Shown: positions 19,870 to 41,635 of the stretch, piece by piece | How positions within the stretch are numbered: the stretch's first letter is position 1 | How the letters are laid out: each line of letters opens with the position of its first letter | Assembly (NCBI GenBank): GCA_902774035.1 | Contig: CACYHA010000006.1 | Coordinates: 202,779-248,977 of the forward strand | Length of the DNA stretch: 46,199 bases | DNA from: Oscillospiraceae bacterium | GTDB taxonomy: Bacteria; Bacillota; Clostridia; Oscillospirales; Acutalibacteraceae | Direction of reading: 5' to 3' | Notes under the pieces: generated by a model | Seen by the model: only the letters and a program-made list of their open reading frames with translations | Told to the model about the DNA's origin: nothing | The model's database searches: none | Translations under genes and position numbers: made by a program

Positions 19870-19903
19870 AATCCTTGGAAACGATTCGACGGGAGGTGCT
19901 TTA

Positions 19904-20701
19904 ATGGGTGACATCATTTTATTCCCTGAAATTGAGGAACTGGAAAAGGAAATCGAGCGGCTGCGCACCGAGATTTCCATGCTGATGGCGCAGCGCGACG
20001 AGCTGCAATTTGTCGTTTGTAAAAACATCGAAATGGAATACATGCTTCGCCTCGGCGGGTTGGAACATCAGGCGTTTTCGCTGCAATGCAAATATCTGCG
20101 GCTGAAGCGGAAGGCGGAGATGATCCGTGCCCGTCTGAATCGCCGGGAGCAGGTGGATCTGGAACTCATCGACGCAATGCTCGACGAGGAGTTCGCAACC
20201 TATCAGGCTAAGCTGGACGAACAGATTCGGAAAATGCGGGATGCGGCAAATTGGAAAAACGCCAGGGAATTGACGGATGAAGAGACGAAGGAAGTCAAAA
20301 GACGCTACCGCCGCATTGTGAAAGCGCTGCATCCGGATTTGAATCCCGACGTGACACCGGCGCAGATCGATCTGTTCCATCAGGCAGTGAGCGCCTATGA
20401 AAACGGCGACCTGATGACACTTCGTATGATCGACGATATGGTTTGTCAGGAGGACCTTCCCGCCGAAAAGCAGAACGCCGTGCAGGAACTGCAAAACCGC
20501 CGGGAACAGCTGCGGAAACTGGCCGAGACCGTCCGCACAGAGATCGACACGATCAAGACCTCGTTCCCATACACGGAGCGGGAACTGCTGCGAAATGAGG
20601 CAATGATCGCAGAGCGCCGCGAGGATCTGCAGACACTGATCGACGAATATACAAAAGCAATCACGGACATGCAGAAACAAATCAACCAGATGATGAGGTG
20701 A
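19904..20701 (+). CDS. Coiled-coil protein with internal J-domain-like HPD motif
   Basis: 265 residues from ATG 19904 (RBS GGGAGGTG); a longer start at 19838 lies inside the promoter. Residues 9-40 and 190-260 are strongly coiled-coil (EELEKEIERLRTEISML, LQNRREQLRKLAETVRTEID). Between them, KRRYRRIVKALHPDLNPD (HPD at 143-145) followed by LFHQAVSAYENGDLMTLRMI is the helix II-HPD-helix III of a DnaJ domain. This suggests it recruits an Hsp70 (DnaK) to a target, perhaps assembled through the coils. The order coiled coil-J-coiled coil is unlike ordinary DnaJ. Its stop is five bases from the HIRAN start; RBS and spacing indicate one operon with HIRAN and ARH. Confidence 0.7.
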   Translation: MGDIILFPEIEELEKEIERLRTEISMLMAQRDELQFVVCKNIEMEYMLRLGGLEHQAFSLQCKYLRLKRKAEMIRARLNRREQVDLELIDAMLDEEFATYQAKLDEQIRKMRDAANWKNARELTDEETKEVKRRYRRIVKALHPDLNPDVTPAQIDLFHQAVSAYENGDLMTLRMIDDMVCQEDLPAEKQNAVQELQNRREQLRKLAETVRTEIDTIKTSFPYTERELLRNEAMIAERREDLQTLIDEYTKAITDMQKQINQMMR

Positions 20702-20705
20702 GAAC

Positions 20706-21104
20706 ATGGGCGACTTAACAACAACGGGCGGCGGCAGCGGACTAGTCGGTTTGCTGCACAGCACCGGCGGGCTGGCGATTCCGAAGCCCTTTGAGCGTGA
20801 GATCCATTTGTTTGATTCCCATGTTGCCGGCACAACGCACATTGAAGGCATCGATGAACTGGAACCGCACCTGGAGGTCGGTGAAAAGCTCCTGTTCTTC
20901 CGCGAGCCGGAGAATCCATACGATCCGAAAGCGATCATGATTCAGACGGAGACCGGCACCAAAATCGGTTATGTGCCGGAAAAGGACAATCTGGTCTTCG
21001 CCCGATTGATGGACGCCGGCAAGCAGCTGTTCGGGCGCATCAAGGAAAAAGAAAAGCGCGGCAACTGGCTGCGCATTCAGATCGGGATTTATTTGCAGGA
21101 TTGA
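20706..21104 (+). CDS. HIRAN-domain protein
   Basis: 132 residues. HVAGTTHIEGIDELEPHLEVG, LLFFREPENPYDPKAIMIQ, KIGYVPEKDNLVFARLMDAGK match the HIRAN order strongly (DPxNPYDPxAI, GYVPxxxN, ARLMDAGK). RBS GAGGTGAG precedes the ATG. Solo HIRAN proteins are presumed to recognise damaged or single-stranded DNA ends. It lies between a J-like protein and an ADP-ribosylglycohydrolase, 20 bases before the latter. Confidence 0.85.
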   Translation: MGDLTTTGGGSGLVGLLHSTGGLAIPKPFEREIHLFDSHVAGTTHIEGIDELEPHLEVGEKLLFFREPENPYDPKAIMIQTETGTKIGYVPEKDNLVFARLMDAGKQLFGRIKEKEKRGNWLRIQIGIYLQD

Positions 21105-21124
21105 ACTTGCGGGAGACATATACT

Positions 21125-22297
21125 ATGAAAGAACAGCAAAACAAACAACACCTCGATAAGATCCGCGGCTGTCTGATCGGCGGCGCTGCCGGTGATGCAC
21201 TTGGCTATGCCGTTGAATTTGACAGCGAAGGCAGTATCTTTGCAAAGTACGGTTCCGGCGGCATCCGTGCCTACGCGCTTGACCCTAGCTCCGGCAAAGC
21301 GCTCATTTCCGACGATACGCAAATGACGCTTTTCACAGCGAACGGTCTGCTGTTTGCGGAAACGCGCGTTGCTATGCGCGGGATCGGCGGTCAGCCCAGC
21401 ATGTACATGCTCCACGCGTACAAGGACTGGCTGCGCACGCAGGACATGACTTTTGCCCAGGCGCAAAAGGATAAAAAACAGAACCGTGGCATCTCCTGGC
21501 TTTCCGATGTGCTGGAGCTCTATCACCGTCGTGCGCCCGGCAACACCTGTTTATCCGCACTTTCCGGACGGCGGGATGAAAACGGCTGCGATTTCATTGA
21601 TTATCCGCCGAATCACAGTAAAGGCTGCGGCGGCGTGATGCGTGTTGCGCCGATGGGGCTTAAAAGGTATCTGTATGCCGATATAAAAACAATCGACCGC
21701 GAAGGCGCGGAGCTCGCAGCGATCACGCACGGGCACTCCCTCGGCTATATGCCGGCGGCGGTGCTGACGCACATCGTCCATCAAATTGTCTATTCCAATC
21801 GTGGGATGACACTCAAAGAGATCGTGGAGGAAGCGCGCGATACAGTCGCGGAGATTTTTGTGGGCGACCGACACTTGAATGAACTGACATCTTTGATCGA
21901 TACAGCGATCGCGCTCTCCGAAAACGACAAAATCGACCTTGACAATATCCACACCCTCGGCGAAGGCTGGGTCGGCGAAGAAGCGCTCGTGATCGCCATT
22001 TACTGCGCCCTGCGTTATCAAAATGATTTCTCGGCAGGCATTATCGCAGCAGTCAACCACAACGGCGACAGCGATTCCACCGGTGCGATTACAGGCAACA
22101 TCCTCGGCGCGTGGCTCGGCTTTGACGCGATCGACGATCAATGGAAAAGGGATCTGGAACTGTATGACGTGATACTTGAAATGGCGAACGATCTCTGCAG
22201 CGGTTGCCAAATGAGCGAATACAGTTCCTATAGAGATCCCGATTGGGTGCGGAAGTATTGCAGGGCGCAGTGGAAGGTGCAAAATTCCAAGGAGTAA
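21125..22297 (+). CDS. ADP-ribosylglycohydrolase (DraG/ARH family)
   Basis: 390 residues from ATG 21125 (GGGAG ahead); a start at 21101 overlaps the HIRAN stop. DKIRGCLIGGAAGDALGYAVEF, LISDDTQMTLFTANGL and AAVNHNGDSDSTGAITGNILGAWLG are the defining metal-binding motifs of ADP-ribosylglycohydrolases (SDDT and DSDSTG), so it should remove ADP-ribose from protein or nucleic acid in a Mg/Mn-dependent reaction. A 40-residue C-terminal extension ends DPDWVRKYCRAQWKV; that extension also occurs as a detached remnant at 23465-23516. The combination with HIRAN suggests reversal of ADP-ribosylation linked to DNA, but this is inference. Confidence 0.9.
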   Translation: MKEQQNKQHLDKIRGCLIGGAAGDALGYAVEFDSEGSIFAKYGSGGIRAYALDPSSGKALISDDTQMTLFTANGLLFAETRVAMRGIGGQPSMYMLHAYKDWLRTQDMTFAQAQKDKKQNRGISWLSDVLELYHRRAPGNTCLSALSGRRDENGCDFIDYPPNHSKGCGGVMRVAPMGLKRYLYADIKTIDREGAELAAITHGHSLGYMPAAVLTHIVHQIVYSNRGMTLKEIVEEARDTVAEIFVGDRHLNELTSLIDTAIALSENDKIDLDNIHTLGEGWVGEEALVIAIYCALRYQNDFSAGIIAAVNHNGDSDSTGAITGNILGAWLGFDAIDDQWKRDLELYDVILEMANDLCSGCQMSEYSSYRDPDWVRKYCRAQWKVQNSKE

Positions 22298-23522: not shown

Positions 23523-24197
23523 ATGATGATCAGCCCTGAGGGCTACTATGAAATGGAACTGAAAGGCAAATCTGCAGAAGAAATCGCCAAGAAGATCCGT
23601 GGCCTGAAAAATGAAATCGGCCATCTGAAAAAAGCAATTGAAGTCCAGCACTATGGCAGCAAAACGGGTTTTTATCCAGATATGCGCACTCAGTTGTGGT
23701 CTGCACGCCTGTATCTTGAACGTGCTGTCGCCGCCTATGAGGAAACCGGTGAAACCTACCAACCTAGCAAGGCCGAACAGCGTGCAGCCACATTCGACGA
23801 AGCCATTCCGACGATCACAAGAATTACAGTTACGCTCGGCGGACATTTCGACGGGTTCGAAACGCACACCATAACATTGACAGATGATCACCTGCGACTG
23901 GATGTTGAGCACTCAATGTATCCCAAACCGTCGAATTTCTATATCGAGCCCGATTACCTGTTGACGAAGGAAGAGTTCCTCGACGGGCTCCGAGATCTCC
24001 ACATAGGCGAATGGCGGAGACACTACAATTCAGTCGACTATGGCTGGTACATTTTGGACGGAACATCGTGGACGCTCACCATTGAATATGCTGATGGTCG
24101 GAAGATCGAACGCGAAGGAAGCAACGCATTTCCATATAACTTTGATCGGCTTTGTGAGTTGGTTGGTTACGAAGAGAAACCTGAAGATAAGGAGTGA
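23523..24197 (+). CDS. Hypothetical protein
   Basis: 224 residues. A helical N-terminal third (SAEEIAKKIRGLKNEIGHLKKAIE, ARLYLERAVAAYEETG) is followed by a beta-rich part (ITRITVTLGGHFDGFETHTITL, WYILDGTSWTLTIEYADGRKIEREG, FPYNFDRLCELVGY). The second part looks like a domain that recurs in Clostridial hypothetical proteins, but I cannot name it. The stop is five bases before the TTG start of the next gene, so the two are probably cotranslated. Confidence 0.6.
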   Translation: MMISPEGYYEMELKGKSAEEIAKKIRGLKNEIGHLKKAIEVQHYGSKTGFYPDMRTQLWSARLYLERAVAAYEETGETYQPSKAEQRAATFDEAIPTITRITVTLGGHFDGFETHTITLTDDHLRLDVEHSMYPKPSNFYIEPDYLLTKEEFLDGLRDLHIGEWRRHYNSVDYGWYILDGTSWTLTIEYADGRKIEREGSNAFPYNFDRLCELVGYEEKPEDKE

Positions 24198-24202
24198 TTT
24201 TT

Positions 24203-24796
24203 TTGGCCAACAAGGGACATACCGAGCCGGATCTGTTCGGCGGCGGCTACACACACTACGACGAAAAAGGGAACAAGATCGGCCGCAGTGAACCGAACTT
24301 CTTCGGCGGCGGATATACGACCTACGATTCCAAGGGCAACAAAATCGGCACCAGCGAGCCGAATTTTTTCGGCACCGGGTACACGAATTATGACACGAAA
24401 CACAACAAGGTCGGCCGCTCCGATGAAAACCTGTTCGGCGGCGGTTACACCCACTATGACAGCAACGGCAACAAAACCGGGTCGAGCGATCCGAATCTTT
24501 TCGGCGGCGGCTACACCAATTCCGACAATTCCGGCGGCTGCTATATCGCCACCTGCGTCTACGGTTCCTACGACTGCCCGCAGGTCTGGACGCTGCGCCG
24601 CTTTCGTGACGATACCCTGAAACGGTCCGCGCCGGGGCGTGCGTTCGTGCGCATCTATTACGCCCTCAGTCCGACGCTTGTCCGCCGCTTCGGCGGCACG
24701 AAGCTGTTCCGGCACTTCTGGCGCAGGAGGCTGGACCGGATGGTGAAGCGGCTGAACGAGAAAGGCGTGGCCAATACGAAGTATGAGGATCGGTGA
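24203..24796 (+). CDS. 22-residue-repeat protein with CFI-box C-terminal domain
   Basis: 197 residues starting at TTG 24203, eight bases after AGGAG; the relic at 22413 has ATG at this exact place, which supports the start. Residues 8-110 are four and a half 22-residue repeats of the form EPNFFGGGYTTYDSKGNKIG, each 66 bp. Residues about 113-190 are a CFI-box-like domain: GGCYIATCVYGSYDCPQVWTL followed by RRFRDDTLKRSAPGRAFVRI and YYALSPTLVRRF. In other bacteria this domain ends many unrelated proteins; it is thought to be a sorting or anchoring module. The repeats look like a surface or binding array. Role unknown. Confidence 0.7.
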   Translation: MANKGHTEPDLFGGGYTHYDEKGNKIGRSEPNFFGGGYTTYDSKGNKIGTSEPNFFGTGYTNYDTKHNKVGRSDENLFGGGYTHYDSNGNKTGSSDPNLFGGGYTNSDNSGGCYIATCVYGSYDCPQVWTLRRFRDDTLKRSAPGRAFVRIYYALSPTLVRRFGGTKLFRHFWRRRLDRMVKRLNEKGVANTKYEDR

Positions 24797-25898: not shown

Positions 25899-26324
25899 AT
25901 GGATAGATTAACCCTGGAGCAGCGCAAAAAAAATATGCAAGCCGTAAAAAACAAAGATTCACAAATTGAGATCTTGTTACGGCGCGCGCTTTGGAGTAGG
26001 GGTGTCAGGTATAGGAAAAATGTGAAAAGCGTCTTCGGACATCCCGATATCGCTTTTATTGGTAAAAAAGTCGCTGTCTTTTGTGATAGCGAATTTTGGC
26101 ATGGTTATGACTGGGAAAACAAGAATGCGGAAATCAAATCCAACAGAGACTTTTGGATTCCAAAAATAGAAAGAAATATCGAAAGAGATAAAGAAGTCAA
26201 CAAACACTTAGAAGAACAAGGATGGACCGTAATACGGTTTTGGGGCAAGGAGATAAAAAAAGATACAGAAGCTTGCGCAAATCTGATTGTTCGGATATTG
26301 GAGGAAAAGAATAATGCCGTATAG
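25899..26324 (+). CDS. vsr: Very short patch repair endonuclease
   Basis: 141 residues from ATG 25899. DRLTLEQRKKNMQAVKNKDSQIE, LLRRALWSRGVRYRKNV, GHPDIAFIGKKVAVFCDSEFWHG, WIPKIERNIERDKEVNKHLEEQGWTVIRFWGKEI is the full Vsr order, with the catalytic Asp in HPDIAF and the His of FWHG. Vsr nicks at T:G mismatches left by deamination of 5-methylcytosine, and it is normally paired with a 5mC methylase, as here: the methylase start overlaps its stop by 11 bases. In the family the motif is usually DGCFWHG; here it is DSEFWHG. Confidence 0.9.
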   Translation: MDRLTLEQRKKNMQAVKNKDSQIEILLRRALWSRGVRYRKNVKSVFGHPDIAFIGKKVAVFCDSEFWHGYDWENKNAEIKSNRDFWIPKIERNIERDKEVNKHLEEQGWTVIRFWGKEIKKDTEACANLIVRILEEKNNAV

Positions 26325-27714
26325 GACAATCGATTTGTGTGCGGGAATAGGAGGAATTCGCCGAGGATTTGAACTTGCCAGTGGATTTGAGAATGTAATA
26401 GCTGCCGAAATTGATGAATTTGCCTGTAGGACATATGAGCACTTATTCCATGATGATCCTCGTAATGATATTGCAACTGATGAGTTTAAGAAAAAAGTAT
26501 CAGAACTGCATTACGATGTGCTGCTTGCAGGGTTTCCTTGTCAGGCATTCAGTAGCGTTGGAAGAAAACAAGGCTTTGAAGATACAACGAGAGGAACTAT
26601 CTTCTTTGAAATAGCCAAAATTATCAGAGAAACTACACCGAAGGTGGTTTTCCTTGAAAACGTCGAGAATCTTACTATCCATGATAAAGGCAACACTTTT
26701 AAGACAATCATCAGGACGTTGGATGAGGAATTGGATTATGAGATTATCGGATTTCCGCATGGCGAGAGCGAGAACTTGAAGCGTTATGCTCGTTCATTTA
26801 TAAGAAACAGTCGTTATTTCGGCGTTCCGCAAAACCGTCCTCGCGTGTATATTGTTGCTTTCAGCAGAGCTTATTTTGGCCAGCATATTTCTGCATTACC
26901 CGACTCGTTGCCTGATAAGCGAGACCGACAAGCCATTTATGAAGATATCAATGACGTGCTTGAGGAGGATGTGTCTGCAAGGTTTTTCTTATCCTCAGGA
27001 TACTTGAAAACATTGGAGAATCATCGAATTCGTCAAAAAGAAAACGGCTATGGGTTCGGTTACAGGATAATCAACGAAAAAGGTGTTGAACACCCGGTTG
27101 CAAACACCTTGCTTGCCACGGGTGGTTCCGGTAGGGAGAGAAACCTGATATATGATCCCGTTAACGGTGAAAAATATGCAGGAACGGAAGTTACGGGAAA
27201 ATATTCACCTATTAATTCAAAATACATCCGAACAATGACGCCGACGGAATGGGGGCGGCTGCAAGGATTTGTTGGGTACGGATTTGTAGATGATAAGGGA
27301 GTAGATGAGTTTTCTTTTCCTGATTCCATACCTATGACCCAACAATATAAGCAACTGGGGAATTCCGTTACTATTCCAGTGATTGAAGAAATGGCTTTAT
27401 TCATTAAACGATGCATGGATGATATGACAAATTCATTTACAGAGATTGAGCGGCGTTTGTATTCCATGTATTGCAGTGAATTCAAAGTGTGTAAAAAGAT
27501 ATGGGACGAACTCGGAAGCTCCTTAAGAAATGATACGATTAATAGATATTTCGATGTTGTATTTCATTTTAAATACAATACACCGTTCAGGAACAGAGAT
27601 TTGACCGCTTATCTTAACTGTACGTCTGCGCGATCTTCTCAGATAATAACTCAATTATCTGATGCAGGATGCCTTAAGAAAATGACCGGAAGAGAATACG
27701 TCTTTATAATTTGA
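26314..27714 (+). CDS. drmMII: DNA (cytosine-5) methyltransferase of DISARM
   Basis: 466 residues from ATG 26314 (RBS GGAGG). All major motifs are present: I DLCAGIGGIRRGFE, IV LLAGFPCQAFSSVGRKQGF (catalytic Cys), VI ENVENL, VIII QNRPRVYIVAF, IX-X TEWGRLQGFVGYGF and LGNSVTIPVIEEM. A 95-residue C-terminal extension (EFKVCKKIWDELGSSL..., SSQIITQLSDAGCLKKMTGREYVF) looks like a winged helix. Next to drmE, drmA and drmB it should be the host-protecting methylase of a class 2 DISARM system. The target site cannot be read from sequence. Confidence 0.9.
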   Translation: MPYRTIDLCAGIGGIRRGFELASGFENVIAAEIDEFACRTYEHLFHDDPRNDIATDEFKKKVSELHYDVLLAGFPCQAFSSVGRKQGFEDTTRGTIFFEIAKIIRETTPKVVFLENVENLTIHDKGNTFKTIIRTLDEELDYEIIGFPHGESENLKRYARSFIRNSRYFGVPQNRPRVYIVAFSRAYFGQHISALPDSLPDKRDRQAIYEDINDVLEEDVSARFFLSSGYLKTLENHRIRQKENGYGFGYRIINEKGVEHPVANTLLATGGSGRERNLIYDPVNGEKYAGTEVTGKYSPINSKYIRTMTPTEWGRLQGFVGYGFVDDKGVDEFSFPDSIPMTQQYKQLGNSVTIPVIEEMALFIKRCMDDMTNSFTEIERRLYSMYCSEFKVCKKIWDELGSSLRNDTINRYFDVVFHFKYNTPFRNRDLTAYLNCTSARSSQIITQLSDAGCLKKMTGREYVFII

Positions 27715-27743
27715 TTTATGCAGAGCTGGGAGGAAGTAAAAGC

Positions 27744-30362
27744 ATGAATGCGATTGAAGCAATCACAAAGATAATCGAAAAATGCGATTTGCTTTTGGAC
27801 GACGAAGTCTTTTCAAAAGAGCTCCTTATGCGTACTTTTGCCGAATTCCTTTCTGCAACAACGGAACGCGAAACGCATAATGTGGGTTTTGTGATGCATA
27901 CGGGATCAATTTGCTTTGACGCACTTGCTCTCATGTATTCTGCCGCAACTTGCCTTGTATATAATGACGCTCATGTTGATGATGTTATCTATTCACTGAA
28001 CACTGGAGATGTAGTGTTATACGGAGACAAGAAAAAAGCAAGATATATTTTTAAAGGCTTTACTACTGTAAGTGAAAGCCCGGGAGTTGAATATATCCAG
28101 TTATGGAAGAGTGACACTGAATCAACCTGTGTTCCTAAACCGCTTTGGGGAAATGTTGTTCCGTATTATGGCAATTCAAAAGCGATGGACGGTCGCGGAA
28201 TCCGGACTAAAAGTAATGCTCGCAGCATACTGTATTCGGAGATTTTGGGATACGGTCCCGGAGAGATTCCGTCTGTATTGAATGTATCCGTAGCTATCGT
28301 GATGTCTCGGGAGAGAATCAATGATCTTGTGGAGAAACTGACTATCCGTTTCGGCAAAAGCACGGTCAAGTTGACTGATTTAGTTACTGTTTCGTTTTTT
28401 ACTGAAAACGATGAGTACCCCTTGGGTGGGAATGTGGCAAAGACCGAACCGATAATTAAAGTTACAAGCAAAATTTCCATTGCAAGACGTCTGATATTGT
28501 CCCGCAACGGCAATAAGCATATCGGGTTGATCGTTTTCGGAAATGAGATTATTTCCAGAAATATTTCAGAACTACCAGAGCTTATAAACCGAAAATCGCT
28601 TCAGTATGTATATCTGCTGATGAATATGGATTATGAGAACGCTTTGTCGCTTATCCGGAATACCGAAGAACCGAATGTGTTTCTTTGTTCAAAAGATTTC
28701 TTGCTTTCTAATTCACTGCCAACTGTGAATAGCAATGTTTATACGGATGAGCTGTCTCTGCAGGTGGATGCAATTATTAACAGAGATATTGAGCCGCATA
28801 TTCTGGACGGATACTTTACTTGGCCTGAATATAAGGTTTTTAAGAAAGCGATATTCTTTATTAAAAACTCTGATTTCGTTTCAGATGAAAAGGAAGATTT
28901 TATCGTAACGGCATGCTCGTTGATGAACATCTTTTTGACGGCGGTTTTCAGAATTAGCGAACTTGAAAAATGCATTGCCGATAGTATCCTGGATATTCTT
29001 CCCGTCGAAGAACGCTTCAAAAGGCTACGGAACGCCTCATCGGGAATGCCTGGGGCACTGAAAGAAAAGACGGAAAGTATTATCTCCGCTTTAGAAACAG
29101 CCTATTTATGTTTAACCGAAACTTCGGAAAAAGAAGATTATCTCAGAACGATTCTGATTGAAAACAGCGACAAGAAGATTGCAGTGGTCGTGCCGAAGTC
29201 ATATTATGCGACAGTAATGAGGGAATGTGGCTTTTTCGATCTAATGGATACGGAGCAACTTTTGACCGTTACTACGGCCAACCGCTTCGATAACTCTGTT
29301 GTCTATGATCGAATAGTCATAGTCGGAAATTTCAGCGGGAAACGATTTGATGTCTTCAGATGTATGGCATCACAAAGAATCGAAACGCTGCTTTATGAAT
29401 TTGAGTCAAATATCTACAAATACCGGATGCGGGGTGCAAAAAAGACAGAATCCGAGCTTAATGCCCTGAACACAGCAGCTTTCGTAGTGGATGATGACGA
29501 TTCGGAAGACTTGTATTATTCCGACGGCGCCAATGAAGATGATGTGGCCGAAATTGCCGAGATAGATAGTGAAGTTGATGATTATCTTATTCACCTCAAT
29601 GAGATTGCAACATTCAGAGGGTTAGAATCATACGGAGCTTCCCAAGGTGCAAGTCAAAGCGCCGAAGTAATTGCTTTCGGAACTTTTGACAGCGGCGAAA
29701 AGATATTTTTCACCAAACTGTACAAGGCCTATGTTTTTGACGATGGAGACGGAACAGTTAAGGAAGTCAGCGTAAGAGATCTGAACGAAGGAGACTCTCT
29801 TGTTTTTACCAGAAACAATGATGAGACTCGAGACATAGTTGATACAATGCTCAGCAAACTGGTCGATGAGCATAAAGTCGGTGACGACATAATTGAATGC
29901 TATCGAAAATCAAAACGCTGGAAGCAAGCCCTGCGAGAATACATGCTGGATAATAATATTCCCGAAAAAGAAATTGCTTCAACCATGATTGCTAATGGCG
30001 TAAATGTTCAGGAGATTACCATTCGCGGATGGCTTGATGAGGATTCCCATACGGTCGGCCCTCGACACGAAGATTCGATTCGGCAGATTGCATTGCTGGT
30101 TGAAGATACTGATATGTTTGAGAATGCAAACATTTATCATGAAGCGTGTGCCACCATTCGAAGAATAAGACGAGATATCTTGTCGCAAATCGGCAGAGCC
30201 ATAATCGACAAGCTTAGCGGGCGAGAACCGGCGGCAGGTACTATTATGGCAGATATTTACGAACGAACCGGATCAATCGCTCAAATCTTGCGTCTGGAAA
30301 GCATAATGAGTATTGAGCGCAATGTCCCAATGAATCTGACAAATCGTCCGATCAACATGTAG
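27744..30362 (+). CDS. drmE: DISARM protein DrmE
   Basis: 872 residues from ATG 27744 (RBS GGGAGGAAG); an in-frame start at 27711 overlaps the methylase stop. I see no nuclease or helicase motif by eye. The protein is a long alpha/beta chain with KKIAVVVPKSYYATVM and YDRIVIVGNFSGKRFDVFRCM in the middle, an acidic segment (DDDDSEDLYYSDGANEDD) at about 590-620, and a C-terminal region with YRKSKRWKQALREYMLDNNIPEKEIA. The call rests on place and size: class 2 DISARM has drmE between methylase and drmA. DrmE's biochemical role is not established. Confidence 0.75.
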   Translation: MNAIEAITKIIEKCDLLLDDEVFSKELLMRTFAEFLSATTERETHNVGFVMHTGSICFDALALMYSAATCLVYNDAHVDDVIYSLNTGDVVLYGDKKKARYIFKGFTTVSESPGVEYIQLWKSDTESTCVPKPLWGNVVPYYGNSKAMDGRGIRTKSNARSILYSEILGYGPGEIPSVLNVSVAIVMSRERINDLVEKLTIRFGKSTVKLTDLVTVSFFTENDEYPLGGNVAKTEPIIKVTSKISIARRLILSRNGNKHIGLIVFGNEIISRNISELPELINRKSLQYVYLLMNMDYENALSLIRNTEEPNVFLCSKDFLLSNSLPTVNSNVYTDELSLQVDAIINRDIEPHILDGYFTWPEYKVFKKAIFFIKNSDFVSDEKEDFIVTACSLMNIFLTAVFRISELEKCIADSILDILPVEERFKRLRNASSGMPGALKEKTESIISALETAYLCLTETSEKEDYLRTILIENSDKKIAVVVPKSYYATVMRECGFFDLMDTEQLLTVTTANRFDNSVVYDRIVIVGNFSGKRFDVFRCMASQRIETLLYEFESNIYKYRMRGAKKTESELNALNTAAFVVDDDDSEDLYYSDGANEDDVAEIAEIDSEVDDYLIHLNEIATFRGLESYGASQGASQSAEVIAFGTFDSGEKIFFTKLYKAYVFDDGDGTVKEVSVRDLNEGDSLVFTRNNDETRDIVDTMLSKLVDEHKVGDDIIECYRKSKRWKQALREYMLDNNIPEKEIASTMIANGVNVQEITIRGWLDEDSHTVGPRHEDSIRQIALLVEDTDMFENANIYHEACATIRRIRRDILSQIGRAIIDKLSGREPAAGTIMADIYERTGSIAQILRLESIMSIERNVPMNLTNRPINM

Positions 30363-30371
30363 GAGGATAGA

Positions 30372-33300
30372 ATGGCTGATATCGAGAAAACAAAGGAGTA
30401 TATTGAAACGCGGCGTCAGTATATTGCGCTGATAAAGGATGAACTGCTCGGTCCGGGGTCTGAAATATCCATCCCGGATGAGCAGCATGAGCTTATTACG
30501 AATTCTCCTGATGTGCGTTACTCTATAGGCATACTGTTTCCTAGAAACAATAAAATCAACGCGGATAACGATGATAGTGCAAGGGTCGAAGAATCCGCGG
30601 CAGAAGACGAAGACAATGATGCCCTTGAAGAACAAGTAACCGAAACCGATAGCGGGAACGAGAGACCTGAAGCCGTAAATCTGGGAGATGAGGATAATCT
30701 CGATGAAGAAATCGGCTTAGCTGCCCAAAACATGCCCTCCTCAATGGGTATTACTTTCTTCTCCAAAGGCGATTCATCGGTCATAAAATGTCATGTGAGC
30801 TTTGCAACGTACAGACATGCGAAAGCTCCGGATTGCCGGATTCCGTTTTGTCCACGTGACCCTGAAGTATACGAGGTTCCCGAACAGCTGGCTTCATTTA
30901 TCAAATTTGATAAAGAAGAAGGCTGTCTGAAGTTTGCAAACGGCGGCGTAAGCAAAAAGGCGGTCCGAGATTTGGAAGAACGAGATGTTCTCGATTTTGA
31001 TGAATATGGCATCTTCAATTCCATGTATAAGCTCAGCGATCAGCTGCGAGGCGGTTTTGTACGCATCCCCCATGCCGTTGATGTTGTGATTGAGTTCGGC
31101 GACGCAGATTATATCGATAAGAATAAAGAACTGGATGAAACATCGGCAAAAGTTACGGCTCTGCGTAGAAGAATCAAAGAAGATCTTTATTCGATAACCA
31201 TAATGCTGGTTAATGACAGGGAGGATAAATCTAATGGTACCCGATGCTTATTCCAGCCGGAAATCCGGGTATTGACCGAGGATAATCAGTTCACTTTTTC
31301 CGAGTATTCCGGGATGTCGGATTTTTCTCTGCTTGACGACGAGGAAAAATCTCTTGAATTGCAATATCGCAATAAAAAGGTTTACGGTACAGGACTCGGT
31401 ACATCACTCGGATGGAATATTGACAGTAACGGCAACGGTGAATTGTATAATGATTTCTTTCCTCAGGTTGAAGTGCCGCAAATGGACTTCGAACTCCCTC
31501 CGGAATATAACGTTGATCCGAAGAGCCTTTCGATGAAGTATTTATCTGATCTTTCGGCCGCCGTGAAAGGAGAGAAAATTTCGTTGCTCCGTGCTTTTGT
31601 CCACGCATATAAGGCGTGGATCGACAAATTGGTACAAAAGCTGAGAGATATAGATGAAAAGTATGATCGGCGGTATCACGAAATCGGACAAAGCAATATT
31701 GAAGGGTGCCTGAGATCCTATCTACGCATGGAGAAAGGTATTGAATCGCTTGTCAATGATCAGAATAAATGGTCTTCTTTTGAACTGGCAAATCGTGCAA
31801 TGTTTATGCAGCGGGTTCATTTGACGCTTCAGAGCCAAACCTCGAGCAAAGACCGCTATCCTTATGATGAGGAGCTTACAGGAATACTTGATTCGATAGA
31901 CTATACCGCTGATTCCGGCTTGACTGGAGATAAATACGGTTGGCGTCCGTTCCAGCTTGCATTCTTGCTGATGAGTGTAGATTCCGTAAGCGATGATACC
32001 AGTGAGGATCGTGATATCGTGGATCTGATTTGGTTCCCGACAGGTGGCGGCAAAACGGAAGCATATCTCGGACTGAGCGCGTTCACGATCTTTTACAGGA
32101 GATTGGCTCACAATAATACATCTGCAGGGACAACCGTAATAATGCGTTATACGCTCAGACTGCTGGCCGCACAGCAGTTTACTCGTGCTTCAACACTTAT
32201 ATGTGCATGTGAATACATTCGCAGGGATTCATCAGAGCGCAGACCGAAGTATAAGGCCTATCCGCTTGGTACAGAGGAGATATCTATTGGGTTGTGGATC
32301 GGCGGAGATCACACGCCTAATAAGAACGATAAAGCAAAAGAGCACTTGCAGATACTTGCTAATTCTACAGCGGATAATCTTCGAGACAATAAAGATAAGC
32401 ACAACAAGTTTCAGGTTTTAAAATGCCCGTGGTGCGGGACAAAGTTGGTTAAGGATAAAGTTGACGGAAGGCTTGTCGGAGCATTCGGATACCGTATGAA
32501 GAACAATCGACATTTTGAGTTGTTCTGCCCGCAGGAAAGCTGTTTCTATAACCAAGTGGGTAAGCTGCCGATTCAGATCGTAGATGATGAACTGTATCAA
32601 GCGCCGCCGACATTGCTGTTCGGAACCGTTGATAAATTTGCAATGCTGCCTTGGAAGAAAGAAATCGGCTCATTCTTCGGTTTGAATTCTGCAAACCGTG
32701 CACCGGAGCTGATTATTCAAGACGAGTTGCATTTAATATCCGGTCCGCTCGGTACAATGGTAGGATTGTATGAGACCGCTATAGACGCACTTTGTGCATC
32801 GAAAGGCTCAAAGGCTAAAATCGTGGCGTCAACGGCCACTATTCGAAGAGCTGCCGAGCAATGCTCCGCCTTATATGATCGTGAAGTCGCACAATTCCCG
32901 CATCCCGGATTGGATTCTGAGGATTCATTTTTTGCCAGAGAGTCGGCAATAAACCATGATACGGGGAAATACGGAAGACTTTATGTCGGATTAATGCCCT
33001 CAGGCAAGACCAAGGCAATGATGGAGGTGCGTTCCATTGCCGCTTTGCTCCAAAAGATTAATTCCATGAACCTTCCGGATGAGATCAAGGATAAGTATTG
33101 GACTCTGACTGCATATTTCAATAGCTTAAAAGATCTCGGAAAGTGCTCGACTTTAGTTGATGATGACGTTAAAGACTTTATCAAGCGTACTGCATATCGC
33201 TTGGGTACAGCCAAGGATGCTCGTATGATCGGAAGTGCGGACGAACTAACCAGCCGTGTATCAACAACGGAATTGAATGAAACACTGGATAAACTTGAAA

Positions 33301-34046
33301 AGTTGGCATACTCAAAAGAAAACATTGAAAACAAAAGATATGCTTCCAATGTTTTGCTTGCAACCAATATGATTTCAGTCGGAATTGACGTTGCAAGACT
33401 AAATGCGATGCTTCTTGTCGGACAACCAAAACTAACGAGTGAATATATCCAGGCATCAAGCCGTATCGGGCGGTCTTTCCCCGGAGTAGCTTTTGCAATG
33501 TATGACGGGTCGAAGAGCCGAGACCGTTCGCATTACGAACAATTCAAGTCATATCATGAGTCTTTTTATAAATACGTTGAACCGACCGGCGCAACTCCGT
33601 TCTCGAAACCCGCACGAGACAGAGCTCTGCATGCAATTGTAATTTCTCTGCTTAGACACTTAAACCCGCAGTTGTCTGCAGAGGCTGGAGCGGCGGAGTT
33701 TACGCGAGAAAAGTACGCTGACGAGATAGAAAGAATCAAAAAATACATAACGGAGCGAGACGCATCGGTTGTCAGACGTATACACTCGGGAATGCTTGAT
33801 GACGGTGAAGCAATATCTGCCGAAATAGATAAAACCACGGAGGAGTGGGAGCGCATCGCCGAGAACTTCGATGAGGATCATTTCATTTACGGTGAAAAAT
33901 ACATGGTGAAACGACCGGATGAGGGAGACGGGCGGTTATTGAAAGTGTTTAATACGGATCGCAGTGATACTGCGTTTGACACGATGACGTCGATGCGTAA
34001 TGTTGATGCTTCGGTTGCGGGCAATGTTCTGATCTGGGAGGAATAA
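30372..34046 (+). CDS. drmA: DISARM helicase DrmA
   Basis: 1224 residues, RBS AGGAGG. The N-terminus (REYIALIKDELLGPG-like YIALIKDELLGPG, YSIGILFPRNN) is typical of DrmA. SF2 helicase motifs follow: Walker A WFPTGGGKTEAYLG (about 555-568), motif II IIQDELHLISGPLG (about 780), motif III VASTATIRRA, motifs V-VI TNMISVGIDVARLNAML and YIQASSRIGRS. A Cys pair set (CPWCGTKL ... CPQESC) near 680 may bind zinc. DrmA with DrmB forms the DNA-loading complex that senses phage DNA in DISARM. Next gene starts two bases after the stop. Confidence 0.9.
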   Translation: MADIEKTKEYIETRRQYIALIKDELLGPGSEISIPDEQHELITNSPDVRYSIGILFPRNNKINADNDDSARVEESAAEDEDNDALEEQVTETDSGNERPEAVNLGDEDNLDEEIGLAAQNMPSSMGITFFSKGDSSVIKCHVSFATYRHAKAPDCRIPFCPRDPEVYEVPEQLASFIKFDKEEGCLKFANGGVSKKAVRDLEERDVLDFDEYGIFNSMYKLSDQLRGGFVRIPHAVDVVIEFGDADYIDKNKELDETSAKVTALRRRIKEDLYSITIMLVNDREDKSNGTRCLFQPEIRVLTEDNQFTFSEYSGMSDFSLLDDEEKSLELQYRNKKVYGTGLGTSLGWNIDSNGNGELYNDFFPQVEVPQMDFELPPEYNVDPKSLSMKYLSDLSAAVKGEKISLLRAFVHAYKAWIDKLVQKLRDIDEKYDRRYHEIGQSNIEGCLRSYLRMEKGIESLVNDQNKWSSFELANRAMFMQRVHLTLQSQTSSKDRYPYDEELTGILDSIDYTADSGLTGDKYGWRPFQLAFLLMSVDSVSDDTSEDRDIVDLIWFPTGGGKTEAYLGLSAFTIFYRRLAHNNTSAGTTVIMRYTLRLLAAQQFTRASTLICACEYIRRDSSERRPKYKAYPLGTEEISIGLWIGGDHTPNKNDKAKEHLQILANSTADNLRDNKDKHNKFQVLKCPWCGTKLVKDKVDGRLVGAFGYRMKNNRHFELFCPQESCFYNQVGKLPIQIVDDELYQAPPTLLFGTVDKFAMLPWKKEIGSFFGLNSANRAPELIIQDELHLISGPLGTMVGLYETAIDALCASKGSKAKIVASTATIRRAAEQCSALYDREVAQFPHPGLDSEDSFFARESAINHDTGKYGRLYVGLMPSGKTKAMMEVRSIAALLQKINSMNLPDEIKDKYWTLTAYFNSLKDLGKCSTLVDDDVKDFIKRTAYRLGTAKDARMIGSADELTSRVSTTELNETLDKLEKLAYSKENIENKRYASNVLLATNMISVGIDVARLNAMLLVGQPKLTSEYIQASSRIGRSFPGVAFAMYDGSKSRDRSHYEQFKSYHESFYKYVEPTGATPFSKPARDRALHAIVISLLRHLNPQLSAEAGAAEFTREKYADEIERIKKYITERDASVVRRIHSGMLDDGEAISAEIDKTTEEWERIAENFDEDHFIYGEKYMVKRPDEGDGRLLKVFNTDRSDTAFDTMTSMRNVDASVAGNVLIWEE

Positions 34047-34048
34047 AG

Positions 34049-36403
34049 ATGGAATTGGATTCGGCTCAAAAGATACAACTTAATAGTATTACTCATTCCG
34101 TAAGAGCATCGCAAGCGGTGTTGCAATACGGAGTCGGAGCCATGGTGGATTTTCCGGATCAGACATTAATGACAGCGGCTCCGGAGTATTGGCAGGAGCG
34201 AGTCGTGAAGATCCATGATGAACGTCTCGAAAAAGCGCTTCATGTGGATTATTTCGGCATGCCCGGTGGAAAAGACGACCCTCATTGCAAAGAGGGAATC
34301 TCCTATGCGCGTTTTCCGGAGTGGTATTTCTGCCCGAAATGCAGAAGATTTCAACCGATAAAGGCTTGGGTGGCGGATTATCAAAGAAGAGCGCGTCAAC
34401 GCACTAAAGAAATTGATCCTTACATGATCAAGCATATGAGATGCCCTTCGTGTAATCAGGATTTGGTCGTTGCCCGTATTGTTACCGTCTGTGAACATGG
34501 TCACATTGATGATTTCCCTTGGGTCAAGTGGGTTCATTGCCAAAGTTTCGGCGGAGCAAAAAAAGTTTGCGAACACCCGTCATTGACATTCAAAACCGGA
34601 GCATCTTCCACAGAAGGATTGGAAGGTCTTGTCGTGACCTGTGAATCTTGCCACGCTAAGGCCACTCTTAAGGGAGCCTTCGATGCAGGTAAGCTTGAAG
34701 AACTGGATAAGAAACACGGATATGAGTACGATTTCACTTGCACCGGCAGACATCCGTGGAAGAACAAAAAAGAAGCTTGTGCGCTGTATCCGAAGGTGTT
34801 ACAGCGTGGTAGTTCGTCCGTGTACTTCCCTGTTACTGCAAATTCTCTGGTGATACCGCCGTATTCCAGTATCCTTACAACGAAGATTGAGAACAGCGAT
34901 GCCTTTGCTGAATGCAGGAATACTATTTCCGCATTTATGCGCACTCCGGGAATGACACAGGAAATAAAGGATGCATTTATTGTTGCTCAGATCGAAGCCT
35001 ATTCCGAGCGAATCGGGTTAGAAATCGGGATATCTAAAGATCAGGTAAAATCTGTGCTGGTTCGCAAGTGGAGACAGCCGTCGGATGAAGAATACAGCAC
35101 ATTAAGCGTAAAATACAAAGCGGAAGAATACGATGCTTTAAGCGGCGAAATATCCTTCGGAAATGATGACTATGGGGATTTTCTGCGTGAGCAGACAGAT
35201 ATCCGAGAGTATGGACTTCCGTATGTCAAAAGGATATCCCTGATACATAAAGTCCGAGAGGTTCAGGCATTAACCGGGTTTTCAAGAATAAAACCGGCAG
35301 ATAAGTCCGAGCCGATCGGAAAGCAGGGCGATGTGGTTTCAGTAAAAGATCCCGAAACAAACTGGTATCCTGCTTATGAAGTGCGAGGCGAAGGTATTTT
35401 CATTGAATTTGACTCTGACGAGATTGACAAATGGAGAAACGAGAATGCGGAGCTTCAGCGGAGAGTAAGCATACTGAATGACAATTACGCCAAGTCGTTT
35501 ATAGGGTCAAGCAATCCGAGGATGGTATCAGGGAAATTTGTTTTGCTCCACACATTGTCTCACCTTCTGATTAAGCAGTTAAGCTTCGAGTGCGGATACA
35601 GTATTGCATCATTGAGAGAAAGGATTTACTGTAGCGAGGCATCCGAAGGAAAAGACATGGCCGGAATTTTGATTTATACTGCCAGCGGTGACTCGGAGGG
35701 TACAATGGGTGGCTTGGTACGACAGGGTCGCTCTGACACATTCCCGAGTATTTTCAAAAAGGCAATTGAATCGGGAATGACATGCTCCAATGATCCAGTA
35801 TGCAGTCTCAGCTTGGGCCAAGGCAGAGATTCTCTGAATCTTGCAGCGTGCTATTCGTGTGCCTTGATACCCGAGACAAGCTGTGAGGAGTTTAATATCT
35901 TTCTTGATAGAGGAACCGTGGTGGGCACATTCAATAATCCGACTCTCGGTTTTTACTATAACCAGATTTACGGAGATGAACGTTGGGAGATACAGTCCAG
36001 ACCAATTCAGCCCGATAATCCGGAAAACCCGAAAGATCGTATTCGAATGTTGATTCCGACTGTAGGAACGGATATGCGAGATGTTGATTATGTTGAAATA
36101 TGGAAGTCAGTTCGTCAGTGGAGTAGTAGCCCTATCGAGAAAACCTTGCTCGACAGTTTATTATCTTCCGTAGGTTTGTTTACTACAAAAGAGAAACCGA
36201 TTTACGATTGTAAATATATGCTGTCCGACGATGCTGAAGAATACGTTGGCACCTTGATTTGGAAATGTTCCGAGGTGATTTACTTCTCTGCGGAAGATCA
36301 CGATTTATATGAAGCTGCATTACATTCCGATTGGAAATGTTTCTGTGGTGATGACGACTCTTTGACACCGGATATTATAGCAAGAGCACTGAAGGAGAAA
36401 TAA
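34049..36403 (+). CDS. drmB: DISARM DUF1998 protein DrmB
   Basis: 784 residues. VLQYGVGAMVDFPDQTLM and WYFCPKCRRFQPI with CPSCNQDLVV (zinc ribbon, about 95-145) and CEHGHIDDFPWVKW at the N-terminus; the DUF1998 domain at about 490-600: LLHTLSHLLIKQLSFECGY, ILIYTASGDSEGTMGGLVRQG, SCALIPETSCEEFN. DUF1998 proteins pair with the DrmA-type helicase, and DrmA-DrmB is the core of every DISARM type. The stop is one base before the next start. Confidence 0.9.
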   Translation: MELDSAQKIQLNSITHSVRASQAVLQYGVGAMVDFPDQTLMTAAPEYWQERVVKIHDERLEKALHVDYFGMPGGKDDPHCKEGISYARFPEWYFCPKCRRFQPIKAWVADYQRRARQRTKEIDPYMIKHMRCPSCNQDLVVARIVTVCEHGHIDDFPWVKWVHCQSFGGAKKVCEHPSLTFKTGASSTEGLEGLVVTCESCHAKATLKGAFDAGKLEELDKKHGYEYDFTCTGRHPWKNKKEACALYPKVLQRGSSSVYFPVTANSLVIPPYSSILTTKIENSDAFAECRNTISAFMRTPGMTQEIKDAFIVAQIEAYSERIGLEIGISKDQVKSVLVRKWRQPSDEEYSTLSVKYKAEEYDALSGEISFGNDDYGDFLREQTDIREYGLPYVKRISLIHKVREVQALTGFSRIKPADKSEPIGKQGDVVSVKDPETNWYPAYEVRGEGIFIEFDSDEIDKWRNENAELQRRVSILNDNYAKSFIGSSNPRMVSGKFVLLHTLSHLLIKQLSFECGYSIASLRERIYCSEASEGKDMAGILIYTASGDSEGTMGGLVRQGRSDTFPSIFKKAIESGMTCSNDPVCSLSLGQGRDSLNLAACYSCALIPETSCEEFNIFLDRGTVVGTFNNPTLGFYYNQIYGDERWEIQSRPIQPDNPENPKDRIRMLIPTVGTDMRDVDYVEIWKSVRQWSSSPIEKTLLDSLLSSVGLFTTKEKPIYDCKYMLSDDAEEYVGTLIWKCSEVIYFSAEDHDLYEAALHSDWKCFCGDDDSLTPDIIARALKEK

Positions 36404-36404
36404 A

Positions 36405-38120
36405 ATGGCAATAATGATTCCGAACACTCCTCATGAGTTCGATCCCGCCAGCCAAGAAGGGCTGATGTTTGATGCGTTGACTAAGCTTCCGGACGAGTAC
36501 TATGTTTTCCATTCGTTCCGAATTACCTCGGTGACGGACAATACGTTTTATGAGAGTGAAACTGATTTTGTTGTCTTCAACAGGAAATACGGCATACTTT
36601 GCCTGGAAGCCAAATCAGGGTTGGTCAAATACGAGGCAGGATATTGGTACTATGCAAGCGGAAGGCCTATGCATAATGGCGGGCCATTTACTCAGGCTTC
36701 ATCTAACAAGTATAAATTAAAAAAACTTATCGAGCAGAGCGTCTTGGCGAATATTATACCACGCTGTAAAATGCTTCATGCTGTGTGGTTTCCTTCAGTA
36801 TCTGATGCCGTTCTGAAGACAATGAAACTACCCTCCGAAGCAGATAAAAAAATAGTATTGACAAAGGATGCTTTAGAGAATCCCGAAGAGTATTTGGAAC
36901 GTATCTTTTCTATTGAGCTTCCCAATCGTATCTGCACAGATTTAAGCGAATACGAGGTTAAAAAACTAATCGGAGAGATTTTTTGTCCGCAGTTTAATAT
37001 ATTCCCGACATCTTCATTTGACAATGATTTAAAGAAAATCGTATTTCACAGACTTTTGAAAGAGCAATCTGCAATTCTGGATTATCTTACAGAACAGAGA
37101 ACAGCGGTTATAAATGGCGCAGCCGGAACCGGTAAAACGATGATCGCTGTTGAAAAGGCTCAACGTCATGCTCGGAACGGAGAAAAAGTCCTGTTTCTTT
37201 GCTTTAATGTAAAGCTAAAAAGCTACTTAGAGGAAAACTATTCTCACGACAACATTTCGTATTTTACTATTTCAGGACTTGCATGCAAAATGTGTTTAAC
37301 CACTTCACCGGATTATTCAAGATTCAAAAGTGTTCTTGAGGATATGTATCTTTCTGAATCATTCCCTTATCAGCATATTATCATCGATGAAGGGCAAGAT
37401 TTCGGTCTTGATGCAATAGACGAGTCGGATTTGCTTCAACAAATGAAAGAAATAATCATTGACAACGAGTCTTTAAACGGATCGTTTTATGTTTTTTATG
37501 ATAAGCTTCAATTAATTCAAGCCAAACACATGCCGAAGTTTATCGAAGACGCTGATTGCAAGTTAACTCTATATAGAAATTGCAGAAATACCGAGAATAT
37601 TGCAATGACATCGCTTCGACCGGTTTCAGAGAGAAGACCAAAGCTTTTTGAAGGATGTGTAAAAGGTACTCCTGCTAAAATTCACTTTTGTTCAACATCT
37701 GAAGTGACTGTTTCTTGCATAAATGCGACAATAGATGCTTTGAAAGCAGAAGGCTACAGAGACATTGTATTACTGACTTGTAAAACGGAATCCACTAGTG
37801 TCCTTGCTGATAGGGTTAGAAATGGTGTTTATAGAAATAAGTTCAGGTTTACTTCTTGTCGCAAGTTTAAAGGCCTGGAGGCGGATGCGGTTATTCTTAT
37901 TGATGTCGATAGTGAAACCTTTAATTCTGAAAATGTTTTGATCTATTATGTAGGTACATCACGTGCGCGGCTTAGACTGGATATAGTAACGGAATTGTCG
38001 GATGATAACTGTGTAGATATTCTTAAAAACGCACTAAACTTTACAAACAAAATACGCAATCCTAAGCGGACACTTGCGAGTGCTTTAAATGCAACTGGTA
38101 GCATAGTTGAGCAATTATAA
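36405..38120 (+). CDS. NERD nuclease-SF1 helicase fusion in the drmC position
   Basis: 571 residues. The N-terminal NERD domain has ESETDFVVFNRKYGILCLEAKSG with D54 and E68-x-K70, the PD-(D/E)XK-like catalytic set. The second half is a UvrD-like SF1 helicase: NGAAGTGKTMIAVEKA (about 240-255), HIIIDEGQDFG (motif II), YRNCRNTENIA, SCRKFKGLEADAVILID, YVGTSRARLRLDIV (motif VI). It starts one base after drmB (ATAAAATGG context), so it belongs to the operon. In described DISARM loci the gene after drmB is drmC, a PLD nuclease; I see no HKD motif here. It probably supplies the nuclease, though it could be an added module. Confidence 0.85.
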   Translation: MAIMIPNTPHEFDPASQEGLMFDALTKLPDEYYVFHSFRITSVTDNTFYESETDFVVFNRKYGILCLEAKSGLVKYEAGYWYYASGRPMHNGGPFTQASSNKYKLKKLIEQSVLANIIPRCKMLHAVWFPSVSDAVLKTMKLPSEADKKIVLTKDALENPEEYLERIFSIELPNRICTDLSEYEVKKLIGEIFCPQFNIFPTSSFDNDLKKIVFHRLLKEQSAILDYLTEQRTAVINGAAGTGKTMIAVEKAQRHARNGEKVLFLCFNVKLKSYLEENYSHDNISYFTISGLACKMCLTTSPDYSRFKSVLEDMYLSESFPYQHIIIDEGQDFGLDAIDESDLLQQMKEIIIDNESLNGSFYVFYDKLQLIQAKHMPKFIEDADCKLTLYRNCRNTENIAMTSLRPVSERRPKLFEGCVKGTPAKIHFCSTSEVTVSCINATIDALKAEGYRDIVLLTCKTESTSVLADRVRNGVYRNKFRFTSCRKFKGLEADAVILIDVDSETFNSENVLIYYVGTSRARLRLDIVTELSDDNCVDILKNALNFTNKIRNPKRTLASALNATGSIVEQL

Positions 38121-40555: not shown

Positions 40556-41635
40556 ATGAGATACATCATCAGCGACGAAAAATTCCATTTCAAATCCGCT
40601 TTTGATACAGAGACCGGGGCCTATGTGCGTACCGGAATTCTGGATGAAAACGGCAAGGATACCGGGGTGGATCCGTTCATGGCATCTTTTCCGCATCTGA
40701 TTGATGTGGGCGTAATGGGGCATTGTATCCACGGAAAGACCGGTTTGTGTGCAAAGGCGGGCATCGGCTGTTATCAGAGCGGGCTCCTAGTTGAACAGCC
40801 GAATATGACAGTGGAGCACTTCCGCTGGATTGCGGAACAGTGCAGAGGCAGATGCAATCAGTTGGCACTGGGCGGTCGGGGTGATCCCGACCAGCATGAG
40901 CATTTTGAAGAGCTGCTGCAGATCAGCCGGGAAAATAACCTGGTGCCGAACTTCACGACTTCCGGTTACGGTATGACGCCGGAGATTGCCGCACTGTGCA
41001 AACAGTACTGCGGCGCTGTGGCAGTGAGCTGGTATCGAAGCACTTATACGCTGAATGCAATCCGGATGCTGCTGGATGCAGGGGTAAAAACCAATATCCA
41101 CTATGTGCTCGGAAAAAACAGCATCGATGAGGCGATCGACCGGCTGGAACGCAATGACTTCCCCGCCGGAATCAACGCGGTCATCTTCCTGCTGCACAAG
41201 CCGGCGGGTCAGGGCTCGCAGGCGAATGTGCTGGACTTCACCGACCCGCGTGCGGCACGGTTCTTTGATCAGGTGGACAAGCGTCATCCGTTCAAAGTTG
41301 GTATGGACTCCTGCAACGTACCCGGCGCAATCCACTACTGCAAGCATATCCTGCCGGAGTCGCTGGATACCTGCGAGGGCGCACGGTTCAGCTGCTATAT
41401 CGGCGCCGATATGATCATGGTGCCATGTTCATTTGATCAGCACAAGCTTTATCAAGTGCAATTGAATGAAAGCACGTGCATAGAGGATGCGTGGAACAGC
41501 GAACCATTTGAACGCTTCCGCAGCAAACTGCGCGGTGCCTGCCCGGAATGTGAAAAGAAAGCACTCTGTCTGGGCGGCTGTCCGCTGATGCCGGAGATTG
41601 TATTTTGCAACAGTGAAAAAAGAAAGACAATATAA
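40556..41635 (+). CDS. Radical SAM/SPASM-type protein with non-canonical cluster motif
   Basis: 359 residues. LIDVGVMGHCIHGKTGLCAK and GIGCYQSGL place cysteines at 57, 65 and 72 (C-x7-C-x6-C) instead of CxxxCxxC. Downstream the radical SAM barrel continues with QLALGGRGDPDQHEHFEELLQISREN (GGxGDP glycine motif), VPNFTTSGYGMT, and AVAVSWY. The C-terminus carries a SPASM/twitch-like Cys set: FSCYIGADMIMVPC, then CPECEKKALCLGGCP. SPASM enzymes typically modify peptides or proteins, and auxiliary clusters fit that. Neighbouring genes could include the substrate, the 42331 protein being the best candidate. Confidence 0.75.
   Translation: MRYIISDEKFHFKSAFDTETGAYVRTGILDENGKDTGVDPFMASFPHLIDVGVMGHCIHGKTGLCAKAGIGCYQSGLLVEQPNMTVEHFRWIAEQCRGRCNQLALGGRGDPDQHEHFEELLQISRENNLVPNFTTSGYGMTPEIAALCKQYCGAVAVSWYRSTYTLNAIRMLLDAGVKTNIHYVLGKNSIDEAIDRLERNDFPAGINAVIFLLHKPAGQGSQANVLDFTDPRAARFFDQVDKRHPFKVGMDSCNVPGAIHYCKHILPESLDTCEGARFSCYIGADMIMVPCSFDQHKLYQVQLNESTCIEDAWNSEPFERFRSKLRGACPECEKKALCLGGCPLMPEIVFCNSEKRKTI

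Follow-up and report, generated by a model that had tools for sequence, protein, structure and literature searches.

A stretch of 46,199 nucleotides from an Oscillospiraceae bacterium (hereafter, the window) carries at 25899–38120 a six-gene operon of the DISARM type (defence island system associated with restriction-modification): vsr, drmMII, drmE, drmA, drmB and a gene for a NERD nuclease fused to a superfamily 1 (SF1) helicase. The reading towards which we lean is that this operon is a DISARM variant whose degrading enzyme is that fusion of a NERD nuclease with a UvrD-type SF1 helicase (the NERD-helicase), instead of, or simply without, the phospholipase D (PLD) enzyme DrmC. How DISARM destroys phage DNA has been called a mystery, since DrmC is reportedly not required and many systems lack it; a PLD enzyme of the host was proposed to fill the role (PMC9142583). 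A recurring, coupled and residue-conserved nuclease-helicase in drmC-less DISARM loci of 12 named phyla is a concrete candidate for the DNA-destroying step, and it renders the question testable.

The operon and its genes

All six genes lie on the plus strand, intact and without internal stops. Successive genes are spaced by −38, −4, +9, +2 and +1 bases; that is, they overlap or lie at most 9 bases apart. A first-pass annotation of this DNA had described six co-directional genes joined by short gaps or overlaps, and the coordinates (gaps from −38 to +9) and profile searches bore it out. The complete order recurs in four other loci (L051–L054; L numbers denote the other stretches compared) and, with one extra gene ahead of drmE, in L065. 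Because these loci repeat the window's order, it reflects more than chance. Promoter and terminator scans gave signal near the level of shuffled sequence.

The first gene, vsr (25899..26324; the frame is open from 25869, with an inner ATG at 25899), encodes a T:G mismatch endonuclease that matches PF03852 (5.7e-27) and TIGR00632 (2.1e-43; 147.4 bits, above the cut-off of 97.85). It contains a PD...FWH stretch, whose residues we take to be catalytic. In its longest reading, with a TTG start, drmMII (26287..27714) encodes a C5-cytosine DNA methyltransferase, putatively self-marking, that exceeds the cut-off of TIGR00675 (1.5e-71); it matches the PADLOC DrmMII profile at 1.4e-52, and generic MTase_II profiles score better (2.5e-82). 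The product of drmE (27711..30362, TTG start) exceeds the cut-off of NF038316 (1.7e-208), and no PADLOC profile matched it at 0.01. It is predicted to adopt a helicase-like fold of superfamily 2 (SF2) with two RecA domains, in which Walker motifs are absent; DrmE may thus be a pseudo-helicase scaffold. No credible match emerged when PDB sequences were searched with a DrmE profile. The YprA-family SF2 helicase encoded by drmA (30372..34046) matches PADLOC DrmA (5.6e-215) and NF038325 (2.3e-282), its 939.9 bits falling slightly below the latter's cut-off of 950. Its partner, the OB/DUF1998 (MZB) protein encoded by drmB (34049..36403), matches PF09369 (3.3e-10) and NF038324 (9.9e-140; 467 bits, cut-off 240).

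The last gene (36405..38120) encodes the NERD-SF1 (UvrD-like) nuclease-helicase, of 571 amino acids. Its NERD domain (PF08378, 3.6e-9) scores 37.5 bits against a cut-off of 22.1. The putative nuclease residues D54, E68 and K70, of the PD-(D/E)xK type, are present together with Walker A (238–245) and Walker B (326–332), and the gene starts one base after drmB, all as the first-pass annotation had it. The Walker motifs, a UvrD_C domain and a UvrD-type fold in structure comparison place the motor in SF1. D54, E68 and K70 are invariant across 44 aligned NERD-helicases. They are kept in 66 of the 69 open reading frames (ORFs) so labelled; the exceptions are two helicase ORFs of greater length (L026, L027) and a partial one (L034). 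From these conserved residues, the protein is predicted to be both a nuclease and an ATPase. It is the only NERD match in its own genome.

Absence of DrmC and PLD enzymes

Neither the DrmC profile NF038319 nor the PLD profile PF13091 matched anything in the operon or in its own genome (85% complete), while controls matched. The profile search that the first-pass annotation had named as a way to overturn its proposal thus turned up no drmC. Its further statement that no gene of the window has an HKD motif stood for the six operon proteins, all of which are clean, and not for the window as a whole: among window ORFs of more than 100 codons there is a single HKD-like string, at 24401. It lies in a repeat protein (24194–24796) that has roughly five units of the GGYTxYD type together with a CYIATCVYGSYDC segment. 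As this protein has no PLD match and the genome-wide searches with NF038319 and PF13091 were negative, we regard the string as a coincidence and reject it as a hidden drmC.

The absence of drmC is not peculiar to the window locus. The DrmC profile, which recognised L020–L022 beyond its two seeds and also L138–L141, matched in none of the 80 stretches with the nearest DrmB (described below). Searched genome-wide in 48 genomes (the window's own and those of 47 of the best 80 loci), NF038319 had a match over its cut-off in one, the genome of L108; the match starts from a contig position (base 71,567) that exceeds the length of L108's own contig (41,580 bases). Among 53 sampled loci with DrmE, which include a few near-copies, none had an adjacent drmC, and 21 also had no adjacent NERD-helicase. 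Both were missing in L143 and L144, two further loci with DrmE that come from the order to which the L071 genome belongs.

Recurrence among the nearest DrmB relatives

A 23-sequence DrmB alignment, applied to the genome collection through one peptide pattern, yielded at least 594 confirmed relatives, the best 80 of which were analysed by calling ORFs and scoring them with profiles built for this analysis. A NERD-helicase adjoins drmA-drmB in 47 of these 80 loci, from 12 phyla (a phylum is named for 45 of the 47); the first-pass annotation had staked its proposal on such recurrence in other drmB neighbourhoods. The gene precedes drmA in 34 loci (33 plus L113), follows drmB in 12 and lies on the opposite strand in one, and in either of the first two positions the reading frames are closely coupled. 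In these counts, near-copies are included (identical DrmB in L120 and L121, and in L031 and L119), and the labels of L026, L037 and L113 were set by hand from gene order. L045 is scored as NERD-less in the tree, though its circular plasmid has a NERD-helicase spanning the record start. The locus in L070 is broken.

The loci without the gene bear on another explanation: this branch of DISARM might mainly block phage DNA through DrmAB and need no nuclease, the NERD-helicase being an accessory that clears DrmAB roadblocks or trims host ends. DrmE is present in 19 of the 33 NERD-negative loci (one of them, L062, was scored as NERD-less though a 467-residue NERD protein stands before its drmE), so it is common for a DrmE-DrmA-DrmB locus to have neither DrmC nor a NERD-helicase beside it, L143 and L144 being further cases; the reported dispensability of DrmC (PMC9142583) points the same way. 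However, an accessory role sits poorly with nuclease residues that are invariant in 44 proteins, and in some NERD-less loci other effector-type genes follow drmB (AIPR in L124, a GmrSD-type protein in L056). We therefore consider pure blocking unlikely. Other genes found after drmB in NERD-less loci encode a reverse transcriptase (L076), a 702-residue UvrD-type helicase (L084) and a UvrD-like helicase of 455–458 residues with a second protein (L047, L127).

Vsr is optional in these loci: a gene for it occurs somewhere in the fetched stretch of 22 of the 47 NERD-positive and 7 of the 33 other loci, as counted by single-sequence phmmer for proteins below 220 amino acids (an iterated Vsr hidden Markov model was set aside after drifting to methylases). 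Judging from its family, it is plausible that Vsr controls the mutation load from 5-methylcytosine. In the window and five near relatives Vsr belongs to the same run of genes; this, and the UvrD-type fold of the helicase, could also be taken to mean that the NERD-helicase is a DNA-repair helper that acts with Vsr to shield the host from damage by DrmMII or DrmAB. This we hold to be very improbable: in the other 25 NERD-positive loci the fetched stretch is without Vsr, and NERD-helicases also come after Druantia-type helicases, in L132 and L133. In L037 and L040, a DISARM locus with a NERD-helicase adjoins DUF2357 and very-short-patch-repair (vsr) genes.

Independent samples

Samples of the order, the phylum, the class and plasmids were chosen without regard to similarity to the window locus. 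DrmB exceeded its cut-off in 7 of 394 genomes of the order: DrmC follows drmB in three, two (the window and L023) have a NERD-helicase and two (L024, L025) have neither. Two loci with sub-threshold DrmB, L026 and L027, both have a NERD-helicase after drmB. In the phylum sample, 6 of 398 genomes had DrmE over its cut-off; five, including the window's, have a NERD-helicase, and L028 has neither enzyme. The contig of L032 stops after the NERD-helicase, which leaves drmA-drmB out of view. DrmC matched at 1e-20 or better in four of the 398 genomes, none of them a DrmE genome, and no ORF in these four DrmC loci matched the NERD part of the NERD-helicase profile. The NERD-helicase labels first given in L138, L139 and L141 were rejected as helicase-only or partial matches with the NERD part missing; those scanned with Pfam, in L138 and L139, are SF1 helicases without NERD. 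L138 is itself a DISARM locus in which drmC is followed by a UvrD helicase fused to a ParE-toxin domain (6984–9869).

Sixty plasmid records with DrmB divided, by tblastn, into 21 with DrmC, 10 with a NERD-helicase, none with both and 29 with neither; the hypergeometric probability of this non-overlap is 0.008, uncorrected for kinship. A tblastn search with DrmE found nothing on plasmids, though the plasmid locus L041 has DrmE by profile; having missed it, the search must be insensitive. A Burkholderia aenigmatica plasmid (L048) has a broken DISARM locus, with drmA in pieces and an IS3 element, convergent to a NERD-helicase. Single-protein scans of viral contigs found no relatives, and phages gave no matches.

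Evolutionary history and weighing of the evidence

Trees of DrmB (103 rows) and of the NERD-helicases came from quick searches with SH-aLRT (Shimodaira–Hasegawa-like approximate likelihood ratio test) support only. In the DrmB tree, the five DrmC rows fall on one side of a branch with support 88, and the window's starred clade of 16 rows comprises nine with the NERD-helicase after drmB and seven without. In the NERD tree, the window's branch groups with L132, L133 and L033, the last a stretch without DISARM. Forty proteins that precede drmA, joined by L023, L079, L092 and L112, lie apart from it, as do the alphaproteobacterial ones. A single clade of DISARM NERD-helicases was rejected by the approximately unbiased test (p 0.0003; 62 rows against 9), with the group put to the test once the tree was in view and with long branches present. 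Where the gene precedes drmA, distances between NERD-helicases correlate with those between DrmB proteins (r 0.94; reached in 0 of 2000 shuffles). Since one clade is rejected and yet these distances correlate, the cassette appears to have been taken up more than once, or passed on to other systems, after which it stayed with DrmAB. The L132 protein nests within the window's NERD clade, which suggests exchange between DISARM and Druantia-type systems.

A number of observations weigh against the NERD-helicase as the degrading enzyme of DISARM. The set of 80 loci is not a random sample of DISARM: it comprises the nearest to the window's DrmB among stretches matching one peptide pattern. Of these, 33 have no adjacent NERD-helicase, seven of these with less than 5.5 kb upstream of drmB in hand (L059, L061, L068, L077, L093, L110 and L125); the enzyme is therefore not indispensable to every DrmAB. 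It is likewise missing from 7 of the window's 15 nearest relatives in the starred clade. The labels NERD, DrmC and none require 17 changes on the DrmB tree, so the gene has been gained or lost often; gene order among the NERD-bearing rows requires just two, from which we conclude that order follows descent whereas presence often changes. The DISARM NERD-helicases do not form one clade, so that we reject a one-time replacement of drmC, and shared host descent explains part of the correlation with DrmB. The dispensability of DrmC (PMC9142583) implies that DISARM may need no nuclease at all, and the commonness of loci with neither enzyme makes protection without degradation possible. Finally, in 50 records searched genome-wide for PLD proteins (the window's own genome, those of 47 of the best 80 loci and two controls), a PLD-family match at E 0.001 or better occurred in 36, only 3 of them over the cut-off. 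Because most related genomes hold other PLD-family proteins, a PLD enzyme could act there in trans.

NERD-helicases also occur outside DISARM. In the class sample they reached 1e-30 or better in 9 of 391 genomes, six of the nine lying outside DISARM: three are in DISARM, two stand right after a DruE-like helicase and four are elsewhere (two on contigs of about 6 kb). The two DruE-like YprA helicases (1586 and 1727 amino acids; 8e-163 and 5e-179) end a few bases before the NERD-helicase begins (L132, 9156–15644; L133, 3550–10508). Such occurrences raise the question of whether the gene merely happens to travel with the DISARM operon and, like Nhi-like nuclease-helicases, is a defence of its own that attacks phage DNA without help from DISARM. 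Stretches L033, L042, L049, L130 and L137 hold NERD-helicases without DISARM genes, and sister DISARM loci are without the NERD-helicase. The top PADLOC match of the window's protein is the reverse-transcriptase-associated RTasNERD-Hel (PDLC03813, filed under DRT; 1.3e-55 over residues 1–527), and it has a weak similarity to Nhi (2.1e-7). No reverse transcriptase domain turned up in the six operon products or in the neighbours examined, in a scan that covered part of the window's ORFs. Against independence stand the tight coupling of the frames in two operon positions, divergence that follows DrmB, and presence in 47 of 80 loci with zero overlap with DrmC. On these grounds, we think a stand-alone gene rather unlikely.

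The first-pass annotation had proposed that the NERD-helicase replaces drmC. With respect to occurrence this holds, as the two never co-occur in our samples; with respect to position (the gene follows drmB in the window's branch and some others, whereas 34 of the 47 precede drmA) and history (more than one clade), it does not strictly hold.

Proposed mechanism

If the NERD-helicase is the degrading enzyme, the operon might work as follows. DrmMII, by its family, would mark host DNA with 5-methylcytosine. DrmA and DrmB, by homology, would load on incoming phage ends and unwind them, with DrmE probably serving as an ATPase-dead, helicase-like scaffold. The NERD-helicase, perhaps expressed to match drmB or drmA by virtue of its direct adjacency, would track along one strand, its PD-(D/E)xK domain breaking down the DNA so opened, an action that its fold and residues liken to that of the AddAB and AdnAB motor-nuclease subunits or Dna2. 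Vsr, again by its family, would repair the T:G mismatches that arise where the 5-methylcytosine of DrmMII deaminates. Nuclease activity, processivity, direction, complex formation, mode of attack and the roles of DrmE and Vsr are all matters that we infer.

A bolder version, which we put forward tentatively as a possibility, is that NERD-SF1 is an exchangeable effector cassette of the YprA-family defence helicases (DrmAB and Druantia-type DruE), recruited several times. With DrmAB and an ATPase-dead DrmE, it would make up a two-motor machine that is gated by methylation, loads at DNA ends and degrades DNA, much like AddAB and AdnAB. DISARM would then be a DNA-end sensor with interchangeable nucleases, not a PLD-based restriction system.

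Window neighbourhood

Upstream of the operon lie a SAM riboswitch (19593–19716, minus strand), a weak DnaJ-like match (19838–20701), a HIRAN protein (20706–21104) and an ADP-ribosylglycohydrolase (21101–22297). Downstream is a SPASM-domain protein (40556–41635), among neighbours that are otherwise unmatched.

Comparison with known systems

By structure comparison, the window's NERD-helicase has the SF1 motor fold of AddA, AdnA, Dna2 and UvrD. AddA, AdnA and Dna2 carry a nuclease on the same chain as the motor. Unlike in those proteins, the window's nuclease (NERD) domain is N-terminal, and we claim no family membership. With RTasNERD-Hel (PDLC03813) the window shares the NERD-helicase architecture; its presumed partner is DrmAB rather than a reverse transcriptase.

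PADLOC requires DrmA, DrmB, DrmC, DrmE and DrmMII for class 2 (type II) DISARM (PMC9252829). A single run of genes in the window encodes DrmMII, DrmE, DrmA and DrmB; it lacks DrmC and adds the NERD-helicase and Vsr. The class 2 assignment of the first-pass annotation is thus right as to the DrmE/DrmMII type and the missing drmC; with DrmC absent, however, the locus is a variant and not class 2 as PADLOC defines it. The same definition would exclude all such loci from class 2.

In another DISARM system, DrmAB is reported to prefer unmethylated DNA with 5' overhangs (PMC9142583). That work poses the question at issue here, namely which nuclease partners DrmAB when DrmC is missing. Its model invokes another PLD enzyme of the host, whereas the window's genome (85% complete) has zero PLD matches and a NERD-helicase in the operon instead.

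We found no description of a NERD-helicase in DISARM in the searchable DISARM literature (subscription papers and supplements excluded), though the tables of PMC12458937 may include such loci; in the literature searched, NERD-helicase DISARM is an undescribed variant. The accessible text on CoCoNuT systems places a DISARM-like system beside McrBC with NERD unmentioned (PMC11090510), and NERD is listed for Mokosh type I and Nhi-like systems (PMC10952713). In PMC12458937, DrmC is the typical DISARM nuclease, many uncharacterized DISARM-like classes are mentioned in a figure legend, and NERD is named for TALON. TALON likewise joins a YprA-family helicase and a NERD nuclease in one operon; its YprA is described as ARMADA-like and is accompanied by TPR-CSD and TBP genes, and the system is extremely rare and largely from Chloroflexota (PMC12458937). 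The window is set apart from TALON, as described, by a helicase split into DrmA and DrmB and by a NERD domain fused to an SF1 helicase.

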